64,000 nucleotides of DNA, taken from assembly GCF_002007105.1 (NCBI RefSeq), contig NZ_MVBC01000001.1:682001-746000 (forward strand), given 5' to 3'. Below the pieces are notes generated by a model that was not told where the DNA came from, did no database searches, and was given only the letters and a program-made list of their open reading frames with translations. Positions 14,155 through 47,836 of the stretch are shown in pieces (positions within the stretch are counted from its first letter, which is position 1; each line of letters starts with the position of its first letter). This stretch comes from Hymenobacter sp. CRA2. Its GTDB lineage: Bacteria > Bacteroidota > Bacteroidia > Cytophagales > Hymenobacteraceae. A program made the position numbers and the translations under genes.

Positions 14155-15267
14155 ATGACGCTTGACTCGCTGCACCTGCTCTTTTTCAAGAATTACGATG
14201 AAGCCAACTTGGCTCTTTCGCCTCACATCAATTGCTTTATCGGAGAGAATGGCAGCGGCAAGACCAACTTGCTGGACGCTATCCATTACCTGTCGATGAC
14301 CAAGAGCGCCTTCGCGGCTACCGATGCCCAGTGCATCAAGCAAGGCGCCGATTTTTTTGTGGCCAAGGGCCTCTTTTCACTGCCCGACTCCCCCACCCCC
14401 GACACCATTCAGTGCAGCCTGCGGGTAGGCCAGAAGAAGCTCATCACGCACAACAAGCAACCTTACGAGCGTATCTCCGACCACATCGGGCGTTACCCAG
14501 TGGTGCTGATTTCCCCCTACGACACCGACCTCATCCGGCAGGGCAGCGAGGAACGCCGGCGCTACTTCGACAGCCTCATTTCCCAGCTCGACCATTCTTA
14601 CCTAGAGCTACTCATCCAGTACAGCTTCTCGCTCAAGCAACGTAATGCGCTGCTCAAGCAGTTCGCCGAACGGCATACTTTTGACCGCGACTACCTGCAG
14701 ATTCTGAACGAGCAATTGGTAGCGGCAGGTTCCCAGCTCGTGCAGCTACGGCAGCGTTTCCTGGAAGAGTTCATCCCCATCTTTCAGCGCCACTACCTGG
14801 AGCTAGCTGACAGTCGGGAATCGGTGACCCTGGAATACAAGACTCAACTGATTGAGCAGGACTTTGCGGAACTACTGCGCTTGCAGGAGCGAAAGGATAT
14901 CGCGCTGCAACGGACTACTGTTGGGCCGCATAAGGATGACTTCGTCTTCCTCATGAACGATGGGCTGGCAGTTAAGGCTTTCGGCTCGCAGGGGCAGCAA
15001 AAATCGTACGCAATTGCGCTTAAGCTGGCGCAATTTGAGATTCTATCGAACAGTAAAAAGCACAAGCCTCTGCTGCTACTAGATGACATCTTTGACCGCC
15101 TAGACGAGCGTCGTATCAAGCGGCTTCTGCAGCTGGTGGCCAACCACACCTTCGGCCAGGTTTTTCTGACCGATACCCACCTGGAACGTACTGACCAAGC
15201 GTTGGCGGGGCTATCGGAACAGGTGGCCCGGTTTCGGGTAGAAAACGGCACCGTTCGCCCACTTTAA
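14155..15267 (+). CDS. recF: DNA replication and repair protein RecF
   Basis: RecF binds gapped DNA and, with RecO and RecR, loads RecA; it is an SMC-like ABC ATPase. In 370 residues it shows Walker A GENGSGKTN (about 31-38), the signature GSQGQQKSYAIALKLAQ and Walker B PLLLLDDIFDRLDERR. ATG at 14155. It is divergent from pdhA (75 bp between starts) and 83 bp upstream of the DUF721 gene. recF is classically origin-proximal, in line with the parS and DnaA-box findings in this window. Confidence 0.95.
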   Translation: MTLDSLHLLFFKNYDEANLALSPHINCFIGENGSGKTNLLDAIHYLSMTKSAFAATDAQCIKQGADFFVAKGLFSLPDSPTPDTIQCSLRVGQKKLITHNKQPYERISDHIGRYPVVLISPYDTDLIRQGSEERRRYFDSLISQLDHSYLELLIQYSFSLKQRNALLKQFAERHTFDRDYLQILNEQLVAAGSQLVQLRQRFLEEFIPIFQRHYLELADSRESVTLEYKTQLIEQDFAELLRLQERKDIALQRTTVGPHKDDFVFLMNDGLAVKAFGSQGQQKSYAIALKLAQFEILSNSKKHKPLLLLDDIFDRLDERRIKRLLQLVANHTFGQVFLTDTHLERTDQALAGLSEQVARFRVENGTVRPL

Positions 15268-15350: not shown

Positions 15351-15668
15351 TTGAAATCCCGCCACAACCCGGAGTTTTCCCGCCAAGCGGATGTTGTCCC
15401 CCTGAAGGATGGCATTCAGGCGTTGCTAAAAGCTTACCGGCTGCAGGGTAAGATGAACGAGGTGTATGTGGTATCGTCTTGGGAACGGATAATGGGCCGG
15501 GCGGTAGCACTCAAAACCCAAGAGGTGTACTTCCGGAACGGGAAGCTCTTTGTCCGCCTCACCTCAGCACCATTAAAGCATGAACTCTTCATGGCCAAAA
15601 CGCGGGTAGCAGAAATCATCAATGCAGAAGTTGGCGAGGAGCTAATCAAGGAGATTGTCTTCTTGTAG
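15351..15668 (+). CDS. DUF721 protein, DciA-like (putative replicative helicase loader)
   Basis: DUF721 includes DciA, the widespread loader of the DnaB helicase in bacteria without DnaC or DnaI. The 105 residues are almost all domain: PLKDGIQALLKAYRLQGKMNE, the core VSSWERIMGRAVALKT and LFVRLTSAPLKHELFMAK. The frame is open back to a stop at 15273-15275 and contains no ATG, so TTG at 15351 is the best start. It follows recF by 83 bp on the same strand. That pairing supports a replication role. Confidence 0.85.
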   Translation: MKSRHNPEFSRQADVVPLKDGIQALLKAYRLQGKMNEVYVVSSWERIMGRAVALKTQEVYFRNGKLFVRLTSAPLKHELFMAKTRVAEIINAEVGEELIKEIVFL

Positions 15669-25560: not shown

Positions 25561-27543
25561 CTACGCCAGCTGCCGCCTCGCCACGGCAGCTTTGATATCC
25601 TCCGGGGTGTCCTTCGGAATGGCGGCCAGCAGGCGCTTGGTGTACTCGTGCTGGGGGTTGGCGTAGATGTCGGCGGCGTTGCCTTGCTCTACGATTTGCC
25701 CGGCGTTCATCACCAACAGGCGGTCCGACATGAAGCGGGCCACGGAGAGGTCGTGGGTGATGAAGAGGTAGGTGATGCCGAAGTCACGCTTGAGGTCGTT
25801 GAGCAGGTTGAGCACCTGCGCCTGCACCGAGACGTCCAGCGCCGAGACGGATTCGTCGCAGATGATGCACTTCGGCTGCAAGGCCAGCGCCCGGGCAATG
25901 CAGATGCGTTGCCGCTGCCCGCCGCTGAACTCGTGTGGGTAGCGCAGGTAGTGCTCCTCCTTCAGCCCGACGGTGCGCAACAGCTCTAATACGCGGTCTT
26001 TTTGCTGCGCTTTAGTGCCACCGACGTTGTGCACCCGCATAGGCTCCAAAATGGCCTCGCCCACGGTGAGCATGGGGTTGAGCGCCGCGTAGGGGTCCTG
26101 GAAAACCATCTGAAAGTCGCGGCGACGACGGCGCAGCTCCCCGGTTGAGAGCTTGGCCCAATCATCCCCTTCGAACAGAATCTGGCCGCTGGTTGGTTCC
26201 ACTAGGCGCAAGAGCGTGCGACCGAGCGTGGTCTTGCCACAACCCGACTCGCCTACCAGGCCCACCGTCTCGCCGCGGCGGATGTCGAAGCTCACGCCAT
26301 CGACGGCGCGCACTACTTCGGTGGCCCGACCAAAGAAACCCTTGCGCACGGGGTAGTGCACGCGCAGATCCTGCACGCGCAACAGCACCTCATTGGTTAG
26401 GGTTGCATTTGCAGCTTTGGCCGCCGTGCGGCTGAACGACGGCGCCGACGTATCGGCCGGGACGAAGTCAACGGGTGCCGACGAAGCAGCTGGCGTTACC
26501 TGTCCGGTTTCCAGCAAAGGCGCATTTTCAAAGCCTGCCAGGGTATTGTCGAGCCGTGGAACAGCCGAATGTTCCACGGGAAACAATTTGTCAATGTCCG
26601 GGCTACTCTGAGGGGACTCGACCGTTTGCGCAGCCAGTTCGTTAGCAGGGCTTTGCAAGTTGGCCGTTTTAGTAACGGAAAAGACACCCGAGGCATCTTC
26701 CTGCATGAAATCAGCTACCGTCGGAAGTTTTTTTCGGCCCAATGAAAGTTTTGGGCGGCAGGCCAGCAGGCCTTTGGTGTAGGGGTGCTGCGGATTGGTG
26801 AAGATGTCGAGCACCGTGCCCTGCTCCACCACCTTGCCGCGGTACATCACCAGAATGCGGTCGGCAATTTCGGCCACTACGCCCAGGTCGTGGGTGATGA
26901 ACAGCACGGCGGTGTTGCGCTGCCGGCGTAGGTCGTCGATGAGCTGCAGGATGCGGGCCTGCACCGTCACGTCGAGGGCGGTGGTGGGCTCGTCGGCAAT
27001 GAGGATGGCGGGCTGGCAGGCCATGGCCATGGCAATCATCACGCGCTGCTTCTGCCCGCCGCTGATTTCATGCGGGTAGCTCTTGAAGATTTTCTCCGGG
27101 CGCGGCAGCTGGGCTTCGGTGAACAGCTCGATGGTGCGCGCCTCCGCTTCCTGCTTGCTCAGCGTGGTGTGCAGCCGCAGAGCTTCCACGACTTGCGCCC
27201 CGCAGGTGTGTACGGGGTTCAAGGAGGTCATGGGCTCCTGGAAGATGAACGATATTTCGTTGCCGCGCACCCGCTGCAGCTCGGCTTCGGAGAGGCGCAG
27301 CAAATCCACCTCGCCGCCCAGGGCCTCGGACTGAAAGCGCGCTTCTCCCCCACTCAGCCGGCCGGGCGGCATTGGAATCAGCCCTAGCATAGCCAGCGAC
27401 GTCACGGACTTGCCCGAACCCGACTCGCCCACGATGGCCACCGTCTCGCCGGCGCGCAGCTGAAACGACACGCCCTCCACGGCCCGCGTCAGGCCGTACT
27501 GCGAGGCAAAGTCGATAGTCAGGTCGCGGACGTCGAGAAGCAC
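25561..27543 (-). CDS. Fused two-domain ABC ATPase for oligopeptide-type uptake (DppD-DppF/YejF-like)
   Basis: Two complete nucleotide-binding domains lie in one 660-residue chain. The first has Walker A GESGSGKS, signature ISGGQKQR and Walker B AILIADEP. The second has [16 protein letters not shown] and CIICDES. Each ends with the oligopeptide-binding C-terminal extension ([30 protein letters not shown]). A ~120-residue low-complexity linker joins them. The start is uncertain: GTG at 27543 ([12 protein letters not shown]) fits the family. GTG at 27570 lies in a short repeat tract. The permease and binding-protein genes are not adjacent. Confidence 0.9.
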
Positions 27544-39721: not shown

Positions 39722-39758
39722 ACAAAAAAGCCGCTCCTGACCGGGGCGGCTTTTTTGT
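39722..39758 (+). terminator. Terminator of the phosphate transporter
   Basis: ACAAAAAAGCCGC-TCC pairs with GGG-GCGGCTTTTTTGT (39722-39737 with 39743-39758, one G-T pair), 5-nt loop, T6 tail. Confidence 0.9.
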
Positions 39759-39847: not shown

Positions 39848-39890
39848 TTATCCACTTATCAACAACAAAATACGGCTGATTTGTGGATAA
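39848..39890. other. DnaA-box cluster A (possible second part of oriC)
   Basis: Three boxes lie in 43 bp: TTATCCACT (39848-39856), TTATCAACA (39856-39864) and, on the minus strand, a perfect TTATCCACA (39882-39890). The stretch is intergenic, between the pit terminator and the stop of the gene at 39899. Confidence 0.6.
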
Positions 39891-39898
39891 CCTAAGCC

Positions 39899-40378
39899 TT
39901 AAGCAGGCCACTGCACCTCCAGATCATCGTTGATGTACACCCCGAAATTGACGAACTGCAGCTCGCCTTCATCGAAGTATAAGTCAATCATCTCCTTCTC
40001 GTAGGAGAGGCGCACTTCGCCGGTATCCACCTTTTCCACCTCGCCCTGCTCGTGCCCGTGGCGGCGCATCAGGGCCTGGATTTCTTCCGGCGACTTGCCG
40101 TGAATCGGCTCGCCGTAGAGGCGCATGCCGGGATGGTCGGTTTCGATGCAGGAGAGGCGGTAATCGTCTTCGCGGTCGAAATACAGCGAGTAGCCTTCTT
40201 CCAGGTAGTTCCAGGCCTGGTGCTCGAACTCGTCGTCGTCCTCCGACTCTTCAATTTCTTCTGGTTCGCCCATCAGGGCGCGTACTTCGTCCATGCTGGC
40301 ACCGAACTTCAGCGGGCCCATGCCTTGGCCCAACACGATTTCGTTTTCCTCGGTGCTGCGGGGTTGGGGCGTGTTCAT
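39899..40378 (-). CDS. Acidic hypothetical protein, 159 aa
   Basis: The product contains GQGMGPLKFGASMDEVRALMGEP, a motif shared by many small bacterial proteins of unknown function, a strongly acidic patch (EEIEESEDDDEFEHQ) and a C-terminal beta-rich half. No signal peptide. It lies between two DnaA-box clusters. Its function is unknown. Confidence 0.7.
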   Translation of the reverse strand: MNTPQPRSTEENEIVLGQGMGPLKFGASMDEVRALMGEPEEIEESEDDDEFEHQAWNYLEEGYSLYFDREDDYRLSCIETDHPGMRLYGEPIHGKSPEEIQALMRRHGHEQGEVEKVDTGEVRLSYEKEMIDLYFDEGELQFVNFGVYINDDLEVQWPA

Positions 40379-40498: not shown

Positions 40499-40990
40499 TC
40501 ATTTTCCATAGCGCTGCTCGAAGTCGGCTTTCTGCTGCAGGTAATCGGGGTGCTGTTTGGCCTCGTCCCATTTGGCTTTGAAGATGGCCGCAGCTTCGGC
40601 CTTTTCCGGGTCTTCGGGGTCGCGTGGCAGCTCGGCCCGGCCGTGGGCGCCGCTCTGGCCTTTTTTATCGTCGGGCACCGGGCCCGCGTACTTTTTGCCG
40701 CCGCGGTGATTGGCGTAGCGCCGGGCCCGGGTGAAGCCCATCTGCAGAAACTTGCGGGCCATGTCGGCTCCCACAAAATCCTTGGCGGCCAAATAGGCCA
40801 GAAACAGCCCGTAAATCGTCTCGGAGGACTCGCGGGCTATGGCGGGCGTCTTAAAGCGCCAGAAGGGCAGGATTTCGCTCTTATAGGGCTGCACGAGCAA
40901 AACGCCCTGCTCACCCTTGCCCACCCGGTAGCATTCGGGGTGCTGGCGGAAGTCGACTTGGCGGAAATCCTGGTTGTAATCAAAGGGCAT
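40499..40990 (-). CDS. DUF4385 protein, 163 aa
   Basis: ATG at 40990 begins MPFDYNQDFRQVDFRQHPE, followed by CYRVGKGEQGVLLVQPYKS and a helical part (AKDFVGADMARKFLQMGFTR), which is the DUF4385 pattern. A longer upstream frame to 41062 adds 24 unrelated residues. The C-terminus is charged. Function unknown; the family is widespread in bacteria. Confidence 0.85.
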   Translation of the reverse strand: MPFDYNQDFRQVDFRQHPECYRVGKGEQGVLLVQPYKSEILPFWRFKTPAIARESSETIYGLFLAYLAAKDFVGADMARKFLQMGFTRARRYANHRGGKKYAGPVPDDKKGQSGAHGRAELPRDPEDPEKAEAAAIFKAKWDEAKQHPDYLQQKADFEQRYGK

Positions 40991-41215
40991 ACGGGCGCGG
41001 CAGCTACGAAGGGCTGTATACGCAAGCCGCCCCGGAAGGTGTCCTAGCCGGTGCAGCCGCACTGCTTCGCTCAGGCCAGCTTGCCTTAGCCGGACGCATA
41101 CGAACGGTGGGTGTTCTGCCTAAGCGCGGCCCCCGCCTTTTTCCGGAGCCTGCTTTCCCGTCCAAGCCAAGGTTCGGCTCGCTTCATTCTGAAAGCCCGC
41201 TTTTCCGTCAGCCCG

Positions 41216-41700
41216 ACTTATCCACGTGCCTAATAACTTTTCACTAAATAAAATTTTAAGAATCTTTTTTGTCTTCAGTTGTTAGGGCTGTTCATAAGTG
41301 GATAAAAAAACGGCTTATGCACAGGGCTTGATAACATGTGTACAAGAACGGATTTATACACCGGCTATCCACATAGGGTGTGCAAATCATTACGCTGATA
41401 AACAAGCAATTAACAGCTTTTTAGACAATCCACATACTTGTGCACAAGGGTGTGAATTCACATTCCTCGGCGTCGTGGATAGCGTCGATTCCGTGGGGAA
41501 GTTGTCCACGGCTGTCCACACCGCTTCGGCACTGGTAAGCGCGGTAAAGGGCCAAAAAAACTTATCCGCTATTTCTCCACGGCTGTCCACGGTTATCCGG
41601 GCGTTATCCACGCATTATCCCCAGGTTAGCCCGGCACCCCCGTCTGAGCGCCAAAGTATTCCACATTGGCCTGTGGATACGTGGATAACTGATAATCAAG
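41216..41700. other. oriC: Candidate chromosomal origin oriC: dense DnaA boxes and AT-rich segment
   Basis: I count about 15-18 DnaA-box-like nonamers on both strands. Among the better ones: TTATCCACG (41218), TTATCCACT on minus (41297), TTATGCACA (41315), CTATCCACA (41365), TTGTGCACA within the palindrome CTTGTGCACAAG (41437-41448), TTGTCCACG (41502), CTGTCCACA (41512), TTATCCACG (41604), TTATCCCCA (41615), GTATCCACA on minus (41672) and TTATCCACG on minus (41680). An AT-rich segment (35 of 40 bases, 41231-41270) fits a DNA-unwinding element. A 156-codon frame across 41298-41768 is composed of these boxes and is not a gene. Confidence 0.75.
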
Positions 41701-41867
41701 CCCAAACAACCCCCCTGATAATCAGGTGGAAGTTACTTACAGCCGAAAAATCAGCCCCAAATCAGTAACCAGAGTGCCGTGCGCCTTTTGTATACCTGCC
41801 CGCTGCCCGGGGGCCTAAGGCAGCTACCACCAAAGTGGCCAAAACCGAAGTAGCAGGAGCACGAAAA

Positions 41868-41892
41868 AGCCCCGCCGCAATGCGACGGGGCT
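41868..41892 (-). terminator. Terminator of the Ig-like lipoprotein gene
   Basis: AGCCCCG-C-CGC pairs with GCG-A-CGGGGCT (41868-41892; one mismatch, 3-nt loop). On the minus strand TTTTTCG follows. Confidence 0.85.
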
Positions 41893-41919
41893 GAACAGGT
41901 GAGGGCGTTGAACGGCCTA

Positions 41920-43545
41920 TCAGAAGCTCAGGACGAGGTCTTCGATTTCGAAGTTGGCGCGTACCGGCTGCGGCTGCGGCGAAAGCCACACGGGCTCGGC
42001 CGGCACGCGCAGCTGCGGGTCGCCGCCGCGCCACCGCCCGTCGTTGTCGGCGTCGATGAGCACGCGGAAGCGGTAGGTGCCGGGCGGCAGGTTGTCGAAG
42101 CGGAAGGTGCGCGGACTGGGCAGCGTCGTCACGATCTGGCCGCTCTGATCCAGCAGCTGCAGCTCGTAGGCTTTGGCTGTGGTCTGCACCCGGCCGGCGA
42201 GGCTGCCCGTGCCAGCCGCGTCGGTGTCCGACACGCGCAGGCGCAGCGGCCGTAAGCGCAACGACTGCCCGCTGATGGCCACCAGCGCCGTGGAATCAGG
42301 CAAGAAGGTGACAGTCTTCTTGGCCTTGGTGTTCACGTTGACGGTAAGCGTCAGGCGGTCCGGGCTGAGGGCGCCATCGGCGGGGGCGCGCAATGGCCGA
42401 CGGGCCGTGGAATCTTCCTGCAAGGTGCCGAAGGGCTTGCCCGGAGCCAAGCGCACAGGCTCGGTAAACTGGAACTTGAGCTGGCCCTGCCGGTATACCT
42501 CGCGCGGACTGCCCGCCACCTGGTAGGCCGGACCGCGCCGCGCCGGGGCGTTGGGCCCGTCGAAGCGCACATTGATGGTATCCACGCCCGCATTGCCGGC
42601 GCTATCGGCCACCGACAGCAAGTAGCGGCCCGGCGCCACTACTGGCGCCCGAAAAATGGTGACGGAGCGGCCCCGGTCCTGCAGGATGGTCGTTTCGCTC
42701 AGCGCCGGTGTGGGCGCCTGGCCGAGAGCGGCCAGGGTGAACTGCCGCAGCCCTTCGCTGTACTCGACCTTGAACTGCGTGGTGGTGCCCTGCTGCGAGC
42801 GGATAAGCGGCCGTCTGGTATCGGGGCGCACGGTGAGCAGGCGCAACGAGTCGCGCCGCGGCTGCACCAGCACGGGCGCCGGCAGGTAGGCTATGCGCTC
42901 CGGCTCGTCGTAGCGGCTGTTCTGGTTTTTGTCGATGAGCGCGTAGATGCGGTAGCTGCCCTCGCGGATGTTGCGCAACTCGAAACTGCCGCTCTTTTCC
43001 GTGCGCGTCTGGTAATACGGCCGGCTGCGGCGGATGTCGGCCGTATCGCCGGCCGGGTACAGGGCAATGGTGGCGTCGGCCTCGGGCGTGCCGGTGAGCA
43101 GCTGCGTCACCGAGCCGCTGACGCGGCCCGAGTCCAGCGCCGCGCCGGTGCTGAAGGCCAGGATGACGTTGCGGGCCGGGTTGTTTTCGGTGATGTCCGT
43201 TACCGCGTCGCGAAAGTTGAACACATAGGTCGTATTCGCGGCCAGCGGCTTGTCGAAGCGCAGTTCGAAGGCGTTGCGCTCCTCCCGGATTTTGTACTTG
43301 TTTTCGTCGGGGATGCTGGGCGTGATGAGCAGGTTTTTGCTCAGGTCCTTCAGCTGCACCGACTCGGAAAACTCGAAGCGGATGTTCTGCTCCGCGACGT
43401 TGGTGGCGCCGTTTTTGGGGTTGGTCCCGACGAGCTTGGGCGCTTCGGTGTCGCGCGCACCGCCTTCGGGCTGGCTGATGGCCGCGCAGCCGACCAGCAC
43501 CAAGCCAACGGGAAGCAGAAGCAGGAAATTAGCGCGAACGGACAT
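41920..43545 (-). CDS. Ig-like-domain lipoprotein, 541 aa
   Basis: The ATG at 43545 gives a lipoprotein signal (LLLLPVGLVLVGC). An N-terminal Big_5-type Ig-like domain follows (EAPKLVGTNPKNGATNVAEQ, FSESVQLKDLSKNLLITPS, LAANTTYVFNFRDAVTD). The rest is a chain of beta-sandwich segments, including a SpaA-like part (GSFELRNIREGSYRIYALID). Similar surface lipoproteins are common in Bacteroidota. The start overlaps the upstream small gene by 17 bp, so the pair is co-translated. Confidence 0.85.
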   Translation of the reverse strand: MSVRANFLLLLPVGLVLVGCAAISQPEGGARDTEAPKLVGTNPKNGATNVAEQNIRFEFSESVQLKDLSKNLLITPSIPDENKYKIREERNAFELRFDKPLAANTTYVFNFRDAVTDITENNPARNVILAFSTGAALDSGRVSGSVTQLLTGTPEADATIALYPAGDTADIRRSRPYYQTRTEKSGSFELRNIREGSYRIYALIDKNQNSRYDEPERIAYLPAPVLVQPRRDSLRLLTVRPDTRRPLIRSQQGTTTQFKVEYSEGLRQFTLAALGQAPTPALSETTILQDRGRSVTIFRAPVVAPGRYLLSVADSAGNAGVDTINVRFDGPNAPARRGPAYQVAGSPREVYRQGQLKFQFTEPVRLAPGKPFGTLQEDSTARRPLRAPADGALSPDRLTLTVNVNTKAKKTVTFLPDSTALVAISGQSLRLRPLRLRVSDTDAAGTGSLAGRVQTTAKAYELQLLDQSGQIVTTLPSPRTFRFDNLPPGTYRFRVLIDADNDGRWRGGDPQLRVPAEPVWLSPQPQPVRANFEIEDLVLSF

Positions 43546-43846
43546 TGTAGAGCAGCAACGTGGAAAGCGTAAGCAGGGCGCAGGCGCCCAGAATGGTCCA
43601 GCGGGCCCGTGGCGACACCGGCGCCGGCGCGGGGTCGGCATCGGGTACCGGTTCGGCCGGCACCGCGGCCGCCCGCACGGTATCGGGCGGCGCGGCGGGC
43701 GAAGGTACAACGGCCGAATCGGGCCGCAGTACCGGCGTTTGGGCAGCTGCAGGGCTGGGCAGCTCGGCCATTAACGCCGCACCCAAGGCGGTTAGTACCA
43801 GCCAGCGGCGGCAGCAAAGGCGCAAGGTGGGCGGCAAGGCTGGCAT
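43529..43846 (-). CDS. Small exported Pro/Ala-rich membrane protein, 105 aa
   Basis: The sequence shows a signal peptide (WLVLTALGAALMAELPSPAAAQ), a Pro/Ala/Val spacer of about 45 residues, and one C-terminal membrane helix (WTILGACALLTLSTLLLY) ending NVRSR. Overlap of its stop with the start of the lipoprotein gene supports it being real. Function unknown. Confidence 0.6.
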   Translation of the reverse strand: MPALPPTLRLCCRRWLVLTALGAALMAELPSPAAAQTPVLRPDSAVVPSPAAPPDTVRAAAVPAEPVPDADPAPAPVSPRARWTILGACALLTLSTLLLYNVRSR

Positions 43847-45970: not shown

Positions 45971-47836
45971 TTACTTACCTAAGTACACCATCAGCACCGA
46001 AATATCGGCCGGCGAGATGCCGCTGATGCGTGAGGCCTGCCCGATGGTTTCGGGCTGAATACGCAGCAGCTTTTCGCGGGCTTCGTGCGAGAGGGCGGGC
46101 ATGGCTTTGTAATCGAGCTTGCCCACGATGCGCAGATCTTCCATCTCGCCCATGCGCTGGGCCTGCTGGTTTTCCTTCTCGATGTAGGTTTCGTACTTGA
46201 CGTGGATGCTAGCCTGCTCCAGCGCCTCCGCCCCGTAGGTCTGCAGGTACTGGTTCAGCTCGGGCAGGGCGCGCTGCAGGTCGGGCAGGTCGATCTGGGG
46301 GCGGCGCAGCAGGTTCACGGCGCGGGTTTTCTCGCTGATCGGGGCCGAACCCAGCTCTTCGAGCATACCGTTGATTTCGCCCGGCTCCACGGGCTTCTTA
46401 GTCAGGTATTCCAGCACATCGGCCGTTTGCTGGCGCTTTTGTTCCACGCGAGCCATGCGCTCATCCGAGGCCAAGCCCAGCTTGTGGGCCAGCGGAGTGA
46501 GGCGCAGGTCGGCGTTGTCTTGGCGCAGCAGAATGCGGTGCTCGGCGCGCGAGGTGAACATGCGGTAAGGCTCGTCGGTGCCTTTGTTCACCAGGTCATC
46601 GATGAGCACGCCGATGTAGGCCTCCGAGCGGCGCAGGATGAACGGCTCCAGGTCGCGCACCCGCTGGTGGGCGTTGATGCCGGCCATCAGGCCCTGGCAG
46701 GCGGCTTCCTCGTAGCCCGTGGTGCCGTTGATCTGGCCCGCAAAGTAGAGGTTGCGCACGGGCTTGGTCTCCAGCGTCAGGTGCAGCTGAGTGGGCGGGA
46801 AGAAGTCGTACTCAATGGCGTAGCCGGGGCGGAACATCTTCGCGTTTTCGAAGCCGGCTATCTGGCGTAGGGCGTTGTACTGCACGTCCTCGGGCAGCGA
46901 GGAGCTAAAGCCGTTCACGTACACTTCCACCGTGCTCCAGCCTTCCGGCTCCACAAAAATCTGGTGGCGGTCCTTGTCGGCGAAGCGGTTGATTTTGTCT
47001 TCCACCGAGGGGCAGTAGCGCGGCCCCAGGCCCTTGATGCGGCCCTGGAACATGGGCGACTTCTCAAAGCCGGTGCGCAGAATCTCGTGCACCTTGTCGT
47101 TGGTGTACGTGATGTAGCAGGGGCGCTGCTTGGCCAGCGTGGGCGTATCGAGGTAGGAGAACTTGCTCGGGTTTTCGTCGCCGGGCTGCTCCTCCATTTT
47201 CGAGTAGTCGAGGGTACGGCCGTCCACGCGGGGCGGGGTGCCCGTCTTCATGCGGCCCGTCTCGAAGCCCAGTTCGCGCAGTTGCTCGGTGATGCCGGTG
47301 CTCTTGCTCTCGGCCGCGCGGCCGCCGCCGAAGTTTTTCTCGCCGATGTGAATGAGCCCGTTCAGGAAGGTGCCGTTGGTGAGCACCACCGTTTTGCTCC
47401 GGAACTCGATGCCCAGCTGGGTGCGCACGCCTACGCACACGTCGCCTTCCACCAGCAGGCCAGTTACGGCCTCCTGCCAGAAATCCACGTTGCTGATGCC
47501 TTCCAGCGTCAGGCGCCACTCCTCGGCGAAGCGCATCCGGTCGCTCTGGGCGCGGGGGCTCCACATGGCGGGGCCCTTCGAGCGGTTGAGCATCCGGAAC
47601 TGAATCATGGTTTTGTCGGTGATGATGCCCGACTGCCCGCCCAGCGCGTCCACCTCGCGCACAATCTGCCCCTTGGCCACCCCGCCCATGGCCGGGTTGC
47701 ACGACATCTGCGCGATGGTGTTCATGTTCATGGTGATGAGCAGCACCTTGGAGCCAAGGTTGGCTGCCGCGGCGGCCGCTTCGCAACCGGCGTGGCCGGC
47801 GCCTACCACAATTACATCGTATTCCTGGGTCAGCAT
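45971..47836 (-). CDS. mnmG: tRNA uridine-5-carboxymethylaminomethyl modification enzyme MnmG (GidA)
   Basis: MnmG with MnmE modifies U34 of several tRNAs using FAD and NADH. The 621-residue protein begins VIVVGAGHAGCEAAAAAANLGS (dinucleotide fold), with the Cys-containing SCNPAMGGVAKGQIVREVDALGG, TGTPPRVDG, and the C-terminal helical MnmE-binding region ending ISGISPADISVLMVYLGK. All typical positions are present. gidA is often near oriC, and the candidate origin here is about 4.3 kb from its stop. Confidence 0.97.
   Translation of the reverse strand: MLTQEYDVIVVGAGHAGCEAAAAAANLGSKVLLITMNMNTIAQMSCNPAMGGVAKGQIVREVDALGGQSGIITDKTMIQFRMLNRSKGPAMWSPRAQSDRMRFAEEWRLTLEGISNVDFWQEAVTGLLVEGDVCVGVRTQLGIEFRSKTVVLTNGTFLNGLIHIGEKNFGGGRAAESKSTGITEQLRELGFETGRMKTGTPPRVDGRTLDYSKMEEQPGDENPSKFSYLDTPTLAKQRPCYITYTNDKVHEILRTGFEKSPMFQGRIKGLGPRYCPSVEDKINRFADKDRHQIFVEPEGWSTVEVYVNGFSSSLPEDVQYNALRQIAGFENAKMFRPGYAIEYDFFPPTQLHLTLETKPVRNLYFAGQINGTTGYEEAACQGLMAGINAHQRVRDLEPFILRRSEAYIGVLIDDLVNKGTDEPYRMFTSRAEHRILLRQDNADLRLTPLAHKLGLASDERMARVEQKRQQTADVLEYLTKKPVEPGEINGMLEELGSAPISEKTRAVNLLRRPQIDLPDLQRALPELNQYLQTYGAEALEQASIHVKYETYIEKENQQAQRMGEMEDLRIVGKLDYKAMPALSHEAREKLLRIQPETIGQASRISGISPADISVLMVYLGK

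Follow-up and report, generated by a model that had tools for sequence, protein, structure and literature searches.

In the excerpts of PMC4285127 considered here, bipartite replication origins are described as two groups of DnaA boxes with a gene between them as spacer, in most cases dnaA. In the consulted parts of PMC5742627 and PMC8682772, the core of the E. coli DARS sites is made of three boxes that include an opposing pair, the opposed orientation being the hallmark of these sites. The datA locus of the same organism is presented with five boxes and an IHF site in the pages used of PMC4585315. Among Bacteroidota, the closest descriptions concern two Flavobacteriaceae, Mariniflexile litorale (PMC11278836) and Algorimicrobium bowmanii (PMC12843772), where Ori-Finder assigned oriC beside mnmG. 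According to the available passages of both texts this position agrees with GC skew (the oriC and ter labels are swapped in the figure legend of PMC11278836). The locus presented here resembles these two predictions, with its predicted origin near mnmG and away from dnaA. However, Flavobacteriaceae belong to another order of Bacteroidota, both assignments are Ori-Finder predictions, and the same passages contain no box anatomy.

The window (the whole stretch of 64,000 nucleotides that was analysed) lies on contig C11 (915 kb) of a 5.88-Mb draft genome in 45 contigs. Its features are listed in Table 1. The conserved block that it carries is very probably the chromosomal origin oriC, a prediction for which all evidence is computational. 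The original prediction had placed a candidate oriC at 41216-41700. This proposal is supported by the conservation of the boxes, the shared mnmG locus, the skew switch of relatives and the distance to parS. The conserved block is slightly wider than these limits, and a second conserved box group, called the satellite below, lies outside them.

Table 1. Coordinates of the features discussed in the text (window numbering).
Feature	Position	Strand	Basis
RecF/RecN/SMC-domain ATPase gene	14155-15267		domain search
dciA, putative helicase-loading partner	15351-15668	+	PF05258, E 8e-15
parS-like site TGTTCCACGTGAAACA, only exact one in the genome	16044-16059		pattern search
Satellite: TTATCCAC and TTATCAACA (tandem, 8-bp step), 17 bp, inverted TTATCCACA (TGTGGATAA)	39848-39890	+	pattern search, 43 bp
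159-aa gene, spacer between satellite and predicted origin, no Pfam or NCBIfam match	39899-40378	-	domain search
DUF4385 gene, spacer	40499-41062	-	domain annotation
Predicted oriC core (DnaA-box array and AT-rich segment)	41202-41738		BLAST conservation, box counts, alignment
DnaA box TTATCCACG, left edge of AT-rich segment	41218-41226	+	8/8 genomes as TT[AT]TCCAC
Putative DNA-unwinding element: (C/T)TAATAACTTTT, variable A/T stretch, GTTAGGG; 64 nt	41230-41293		30 sequences
Tandem DnaA-box pair TTATCCACT, TTATGAACA, 8-bp step, right edge of AT-rich segment	41289-41305	-	both positions kept in 8/8 genomes
Other DnaA boxes, both strands, mostly weak	41315-41688		box counts and alignment
Palindrome CTTGTGCACAAG, two overlapping inverted boxes (41438-41447)	41437-41448		sequence
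Conserved non-box motif CAAAAAAACTT	41553-41563	+	alignment of window and 22 family sequences
mnmG, neighbourhood marker	45971-47836	-	gene annotation, locus comparison

The array is housed in the gap between the DUF4385 gene and a gene with an Ig-like domain (41920-43710, minus strand). Between 41201 and 41720, no nonamer is identical to the consensus TTATCCACA, 8 have at most one mismatch and 20 at most two, the latter spanning 41218-41688. First-order Markov simulations modelled on this segment (n=500) gave a mean of 0.16 (maximum 2) for one mismatch and of 1.8 (maximum 7) for two. Compared with TTWTNCACA, the same segment contains one exact site and 16 with at most one mismatch, so that the 15-18 boxes of the original prediction were a fair count. 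As controls, 80 stretches of 20 kb each were taken, 60 of them in two congeners and 20 on the contig of the window itself. With at most one mismatch, the densest 500 bp contained 0-2 sites in 79 of these pieces and 3 in the other, and with at most two mismatches the top count was 9, reached in a single piece. Among the TTATCCAC places listed (100 of the 111 in the genome), four are inside the block and no other group is equally dense. The cluster is therefore above chance, and it lies in a non-coding stretch, as in a DnaA-dependent oriC. A GTG ORF (41298-41768, 156 aa) is open in the window only and is interrupted by 3-5 in-frame stops in all seven congeners; it was rejected as a gene, in keeping with the earlier view that the stretch holds no real one. 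A structured RNA was likewise discarded, the only two hits (41854-41928) both scoring under the gathering threshold. The palindrome signalled in the middle of the array is indeed present, but just 4 of the 8 aligned genomes of the genus, the window included, retain the 10 bp in its interior, TTGTGCACAA.

The AT-rich segment, also part of the original prediction as a DUE-like stretch, contains the single highest 40-mer of the whole window (35 A/T out of 40 at 41231-41270). The distance from TAATAAC to ATAAGTGGA is 64 nt in 28 of the 30 sequences compared and 65 nt in the remaining two, and the A/T sequence inside varies. Over 48 nt, the AT content of the predicted unwinding segment ranges from 0.79 to 0.88 in these 30 sequences. 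A putative AT-rich opening element would thus adjoin the boxes, as in an oriC. When the window is aligned with 22 sequences of the family, the conspicuous elements are the box on the left, TAATAACTTTT, the AT segment, GTTAGGG, ATAAGTGGA and CAAAAAAACTT. The DnaA-trio motif is frequent beside unwinding elements, not universal. At the box nearest to the predicted element, no run of at least three trios was observed in 8 of the 9 sequences inspected and the ninth has a run of 4; runs of this size (three or more) arise in 258 of 1000 shuffles. Apart from the boxes, CAAAAAAACTT and TGTTAGGG (41280-41287) are conserved in the family without being DnaA boxes. It is possible that they are sites of another origin-binding protein.

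Conservation of the boxes had been set beforehand as a check. The block gives one BLAST match per genome in the eight genomes of the window's genus and a DNA match in 75 of the 150 family genomes, distributed over all six genera; clusters on the mnmG side occur in many, not all, Cytophagales loci. In a strand-corrected alignment of the eight genomes, 16 of the window's box positions are each retained with two mismatches or fewer in at least seven genomes, 14 of them in all eight, and position 41474 is kept in five. The array is therefore found at the same place between relatives, as expected of an oriC. Exact TTATCCACA is missing from the block in seven of the eight genomes. The weaker boxes are a trait of the window's genus and not of the family, since 1 to 7 exact boxes are present at the locus in L011-L024 (13 Hymenobacter loci and one from an uncultured Hymenobacter). 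An altered DnaA specificity was considered as the origin of this difference. The signature GRDHSTVIHSVQTV, which we take to contact DNA in DnaA, is identical in the genome of the window and in three of four relatives, and reads GRDHTTVMHSVQTV in the fourth. It shows no matching difference, and the idea of a changed specificity is therefore unsupported.

The neighbourhood is shared as well. A box cluster lies behind mnmG in all 15 Solirubrum and Hymenobacter loci (L010-L024), with 4 to 16 sites (at most one mismatch) in the best 500 bp, and starts about 3-4 kb behind the gene in 14 of them and 6 kb behind it in L011. The order mnmG, methyltransferase, Ig-like gene, origin, DUF4385 is common to the 15 loci. 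The 159-aa and PiT genes come next in 14 (the exception, L020, stops short), and 12 loci also continue with a class II tRNA-synthetase gene. In Dyadobacter, Algoriphagus, Echinicola and others, the cluster is about 2.6 kb behind mnmG. The ten Rufibacter, Adhaeribacter and Pontibacter loci (L025-L034) exhibit weaker boxes only (9-17 at two mismatches or fewer, 2-4 at one or fewer). The one DnaA of genus g3 that was read (L253) has the usual signature despite the few good boxes in these origins. Of the 80 mnmG loci, some twelve, for the most part from Saprospiraceae and Chitinophagales bins, show no box cluster behind the gene. In the window itself, the neighbours named by the original prediction (a RecF-type ATPase, DciA, mnmG and parS) were all recovered.

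GC skew is weak in this family and was sampled in five relatives from 20-kb pieces (40 in one relative, 20 in each of the four others), the main contig being treated as circular. The candidate is 5.4, 2.0, 2.0, 0.8 and 9.1% of chromosome length away from the best raw-skew switch, with a pooled P of 9e-5 against random rotation. The signals from fourfold sites (pooled P 0.025, one genome off by 25%) and gene-strand bias (pooled P 0.10) are below that of raw skew. The location of the block at the switch in strand composition, foreseen as a check, is thus observed in the five sampled relatives, but on the window's own contig, part of a draft, the sampled minimum (20 pieces and the window) is about 0.15 Mb from the candidate. 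The distance to parS counts as independent support for an oriC. Nine of the ten genomes searched have a single exact parS, 22-26 kb from the block, and the tenth has two, one of them 7 kb from it. A parS-like site with one mismatch, TGTTCCACGGGAAACA, is also present in the window within an ABC-transporter ORF (26570-26585).

The dnaA gene is found in one copy in the window's genome, on a different contig from the block. In all nine relatives the two share a contig, 0.76-1.38 Mb apart in six and, if the contig is taken as circular, about 0.9-1.0 Mb apart in G004, G007 and G134. The flanks of dnaA (3.5-kb loci) contain 0-3 sites with at most one mismatch and no dense group in the five genomes inspected, and an origin at dnaA was rejected on this basis. 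The main contigs of G004 and G007 (C1 in both) open shortly ahead of dnaA, whose Pfam match begins at base 559, about 0.9 Mb from the predicted origin if circular. The origin of the window's genus and of Hymenobacter would thus be placed away from dnaA, and the contigs of these two congeners look rotated to a presumed dnaA start.

The observations assembled here are an array, its conservation, an AT segment of fixed length, a shared neighbourhood, a skew switch in relatives and a constant distance to parS. Part of the evidence speaks against an oriC: the block is unmatched by BLAST in the other 75 family genomes, the skew is weak with a displaced minimum on the contig itself, some mnmG loci are clusterless, and the DnaA-trio and the exact consensus box are lacking in most of the sequences. 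The array might alternatively titrate or regulate DnaA in the manner of datA, the real origin being elsewhere, for instance at dnaA. Many of its boxes are weak, dnaA is absent from the locus, and dnaA-adjacent origins are common in other phyla. However, the dnaA flanks are devoid of a dense box group, skew and parS both point to the block, and a fixed-length AT segment bracketed by boxes would be left unexplained, making this role very improbable. We give practically no credit to the origin of a plasmid or chromid integrated into the chromosome. Box arrays do occur in plasmid origins too, but the block has zero matches among 72,556 plasmid records, and this idea is contradicted by the same chromosomal neighbourhood throughout the family and by the 915-kb contig. 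If the block is the chromosomal oriC, ATP-bound DnaA would fill the array of mostly weak boxes, with the single box at 41218 and the tandem pair on either side of the 64-nt segment. This segment would then open, and DciA would aid the loading of the DnaB helicase before two forks depart.

The satellite was spotted among the listed TTATCCAC places. It is flanked by the PiT and 159-aa genes, both of which end towards it, a position that makes promoter action unlikely, and it was rejected as a promoter element. It adjoins a terminator-like hairpin. Sequences similar to the inverted repeat of this type at 39722-39758 occur in many copies throughout the genus. The satellite search covered first the 150 family genomes also used for the BLAST of the block and for the g3 pattern. 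With at most two mismatches, the 43-bp pattern is present exactly once per genome in all 74 genomes of two genera (8 of 8 in the window's genus, 66 of 66 in genus g5), in 16 of the 50 genomes of genus g3 and in none of the 26 others; a reversed control pattern gave no match. Among 18 loci holding the PiT and 159-aa genes, 14 (13 Hymenobacter, 1 Solirubrum) include the satellite, each time with facing boxes 26 bp apart, and it is absent from the other four (Rufibacter, Adhaeribacter). Distances to the block were measured where the latter was also BLAST-matched on the same contig (57 of the 74 genomes); of the other 17, G071 was entered and 16 were left out, and the list (n=58) also includes G088 from g3. 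The satellite keeps the strand of the block and the same side of it in all 57 measured genomes; the two are 1.1-1.8 kb apart in 56 of these (about 1.3 kb in the window) and 7.2 kb apart in the other.

In genus g3, the 43-bp frame carries an extra box. A dedicated pattern identified it in 18 of the 150 genomes, all from g3. In the five genomes where both could be placed (G063 among them), frame and block are on different contigs or 500 kb apart. The frame is a candidate remote DnaA-control site. In G088 the frame is intergenic, between aldehyde dehydrogenase and ECF sigma-factor genes, with two more boxes nearby (L266 2022-2218; G088:C1 near 2012521).

The satellite is most likely part of one DnaA circuit with the block. 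It would serve there either as another origin module or to recharge or hold DnaA, two readings that we consider about level. As the second subregion of a bipartite oriC, it would be looped by DnaA to the main array over a spacer of two genes other than dnaA, an interpretation that falls only a little short of an even chance. As in the bipartite origins of B. subtilis and Helicobacter pylori described in the excerpts of PMC4285127, two box groups, one with a predicted unwinding element, are split by a gene spacer over less than about 2 kb. The constant strand, side and distance favour an origin module, and the tandem pair with its 8-bp step repeats the pair beside the AT segment. General synteny could also keep this distance, which weakens the argument, and both the genome with 7.2 kb and the separation of frame and block in the third genus count against it. 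Unlike the origins of these excerpts, the spacer is made of the DUF4385 and 159-aa genes and not of dnaA (usual but not required in this position), which is far from the block in all nine relatives, and the second group is limited to three boxes.

A DnaA-control site next to the origin, recharging ADP-DnaA like DARS or acting like datA, is also a serious possibility, to be held with some reserve. In E. coli, locus L265, right behind the deletion arm printed in PMC4585315 (consulted in part), shows two tandem boxes on the minus strand and, facing them, one on the plus strand; we assigned these three in this analysis to boxes I-III of DARS2. The satellite, with a tandem pair facing one inverted box, has the three boxes and opposing pair of this core (PMC8682772, PMC5742627, as far as the consulted parts go) in mirror image. 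Its location between two gene ends, where a promoter role is unlikely, and the displacement of the frame in g3, which favours a function independent of location, agree with such a site. However, the facing boxes are 26 bp apart from start to start versus 14 in DARS2, the tandem step is 8 versus 12 bp, and with three boxes only a chance match of topology is easy. The satellite also differs from DARS2 in being beside the predicted origin. It resembles datA as a non-coding DnaA-box group outside the origin core, but it has three boxes where the consulted part of the datA description has five.

The predicted origin is of a known kind, and the satellite makes it a variant. We tentatively propose, as an idea that is rather less probable than its opposite, that Hymenobacter and its sister genus possess a two-part DnaA control locus. 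It would comprise a 64-nt opening segment bracketed by boxes and a single-copy 43-bp site of three boxes with DARS topology about 1.3 kb away, with genes other than dnaA in between, the frame having moved elsewhere in a third genus. A search of the open-licence literature for Hymenobacter together with DnaA boxes found nothing, nor did a search by title, in the same literature, for DnaA steering through a DARS- or datA-like site in Bacteroidota. If the proposal is true, this two-part locus would amount to a Bacteroidota version of origin splitting or DnaA recharging. With a single copy of its three boxes in every one of the 74 genomes of two genera, the site lends itself well to the question of DnaA control by DARS- or datA-like elements in Bacteroidota, and it may help to control the timing of replication start.
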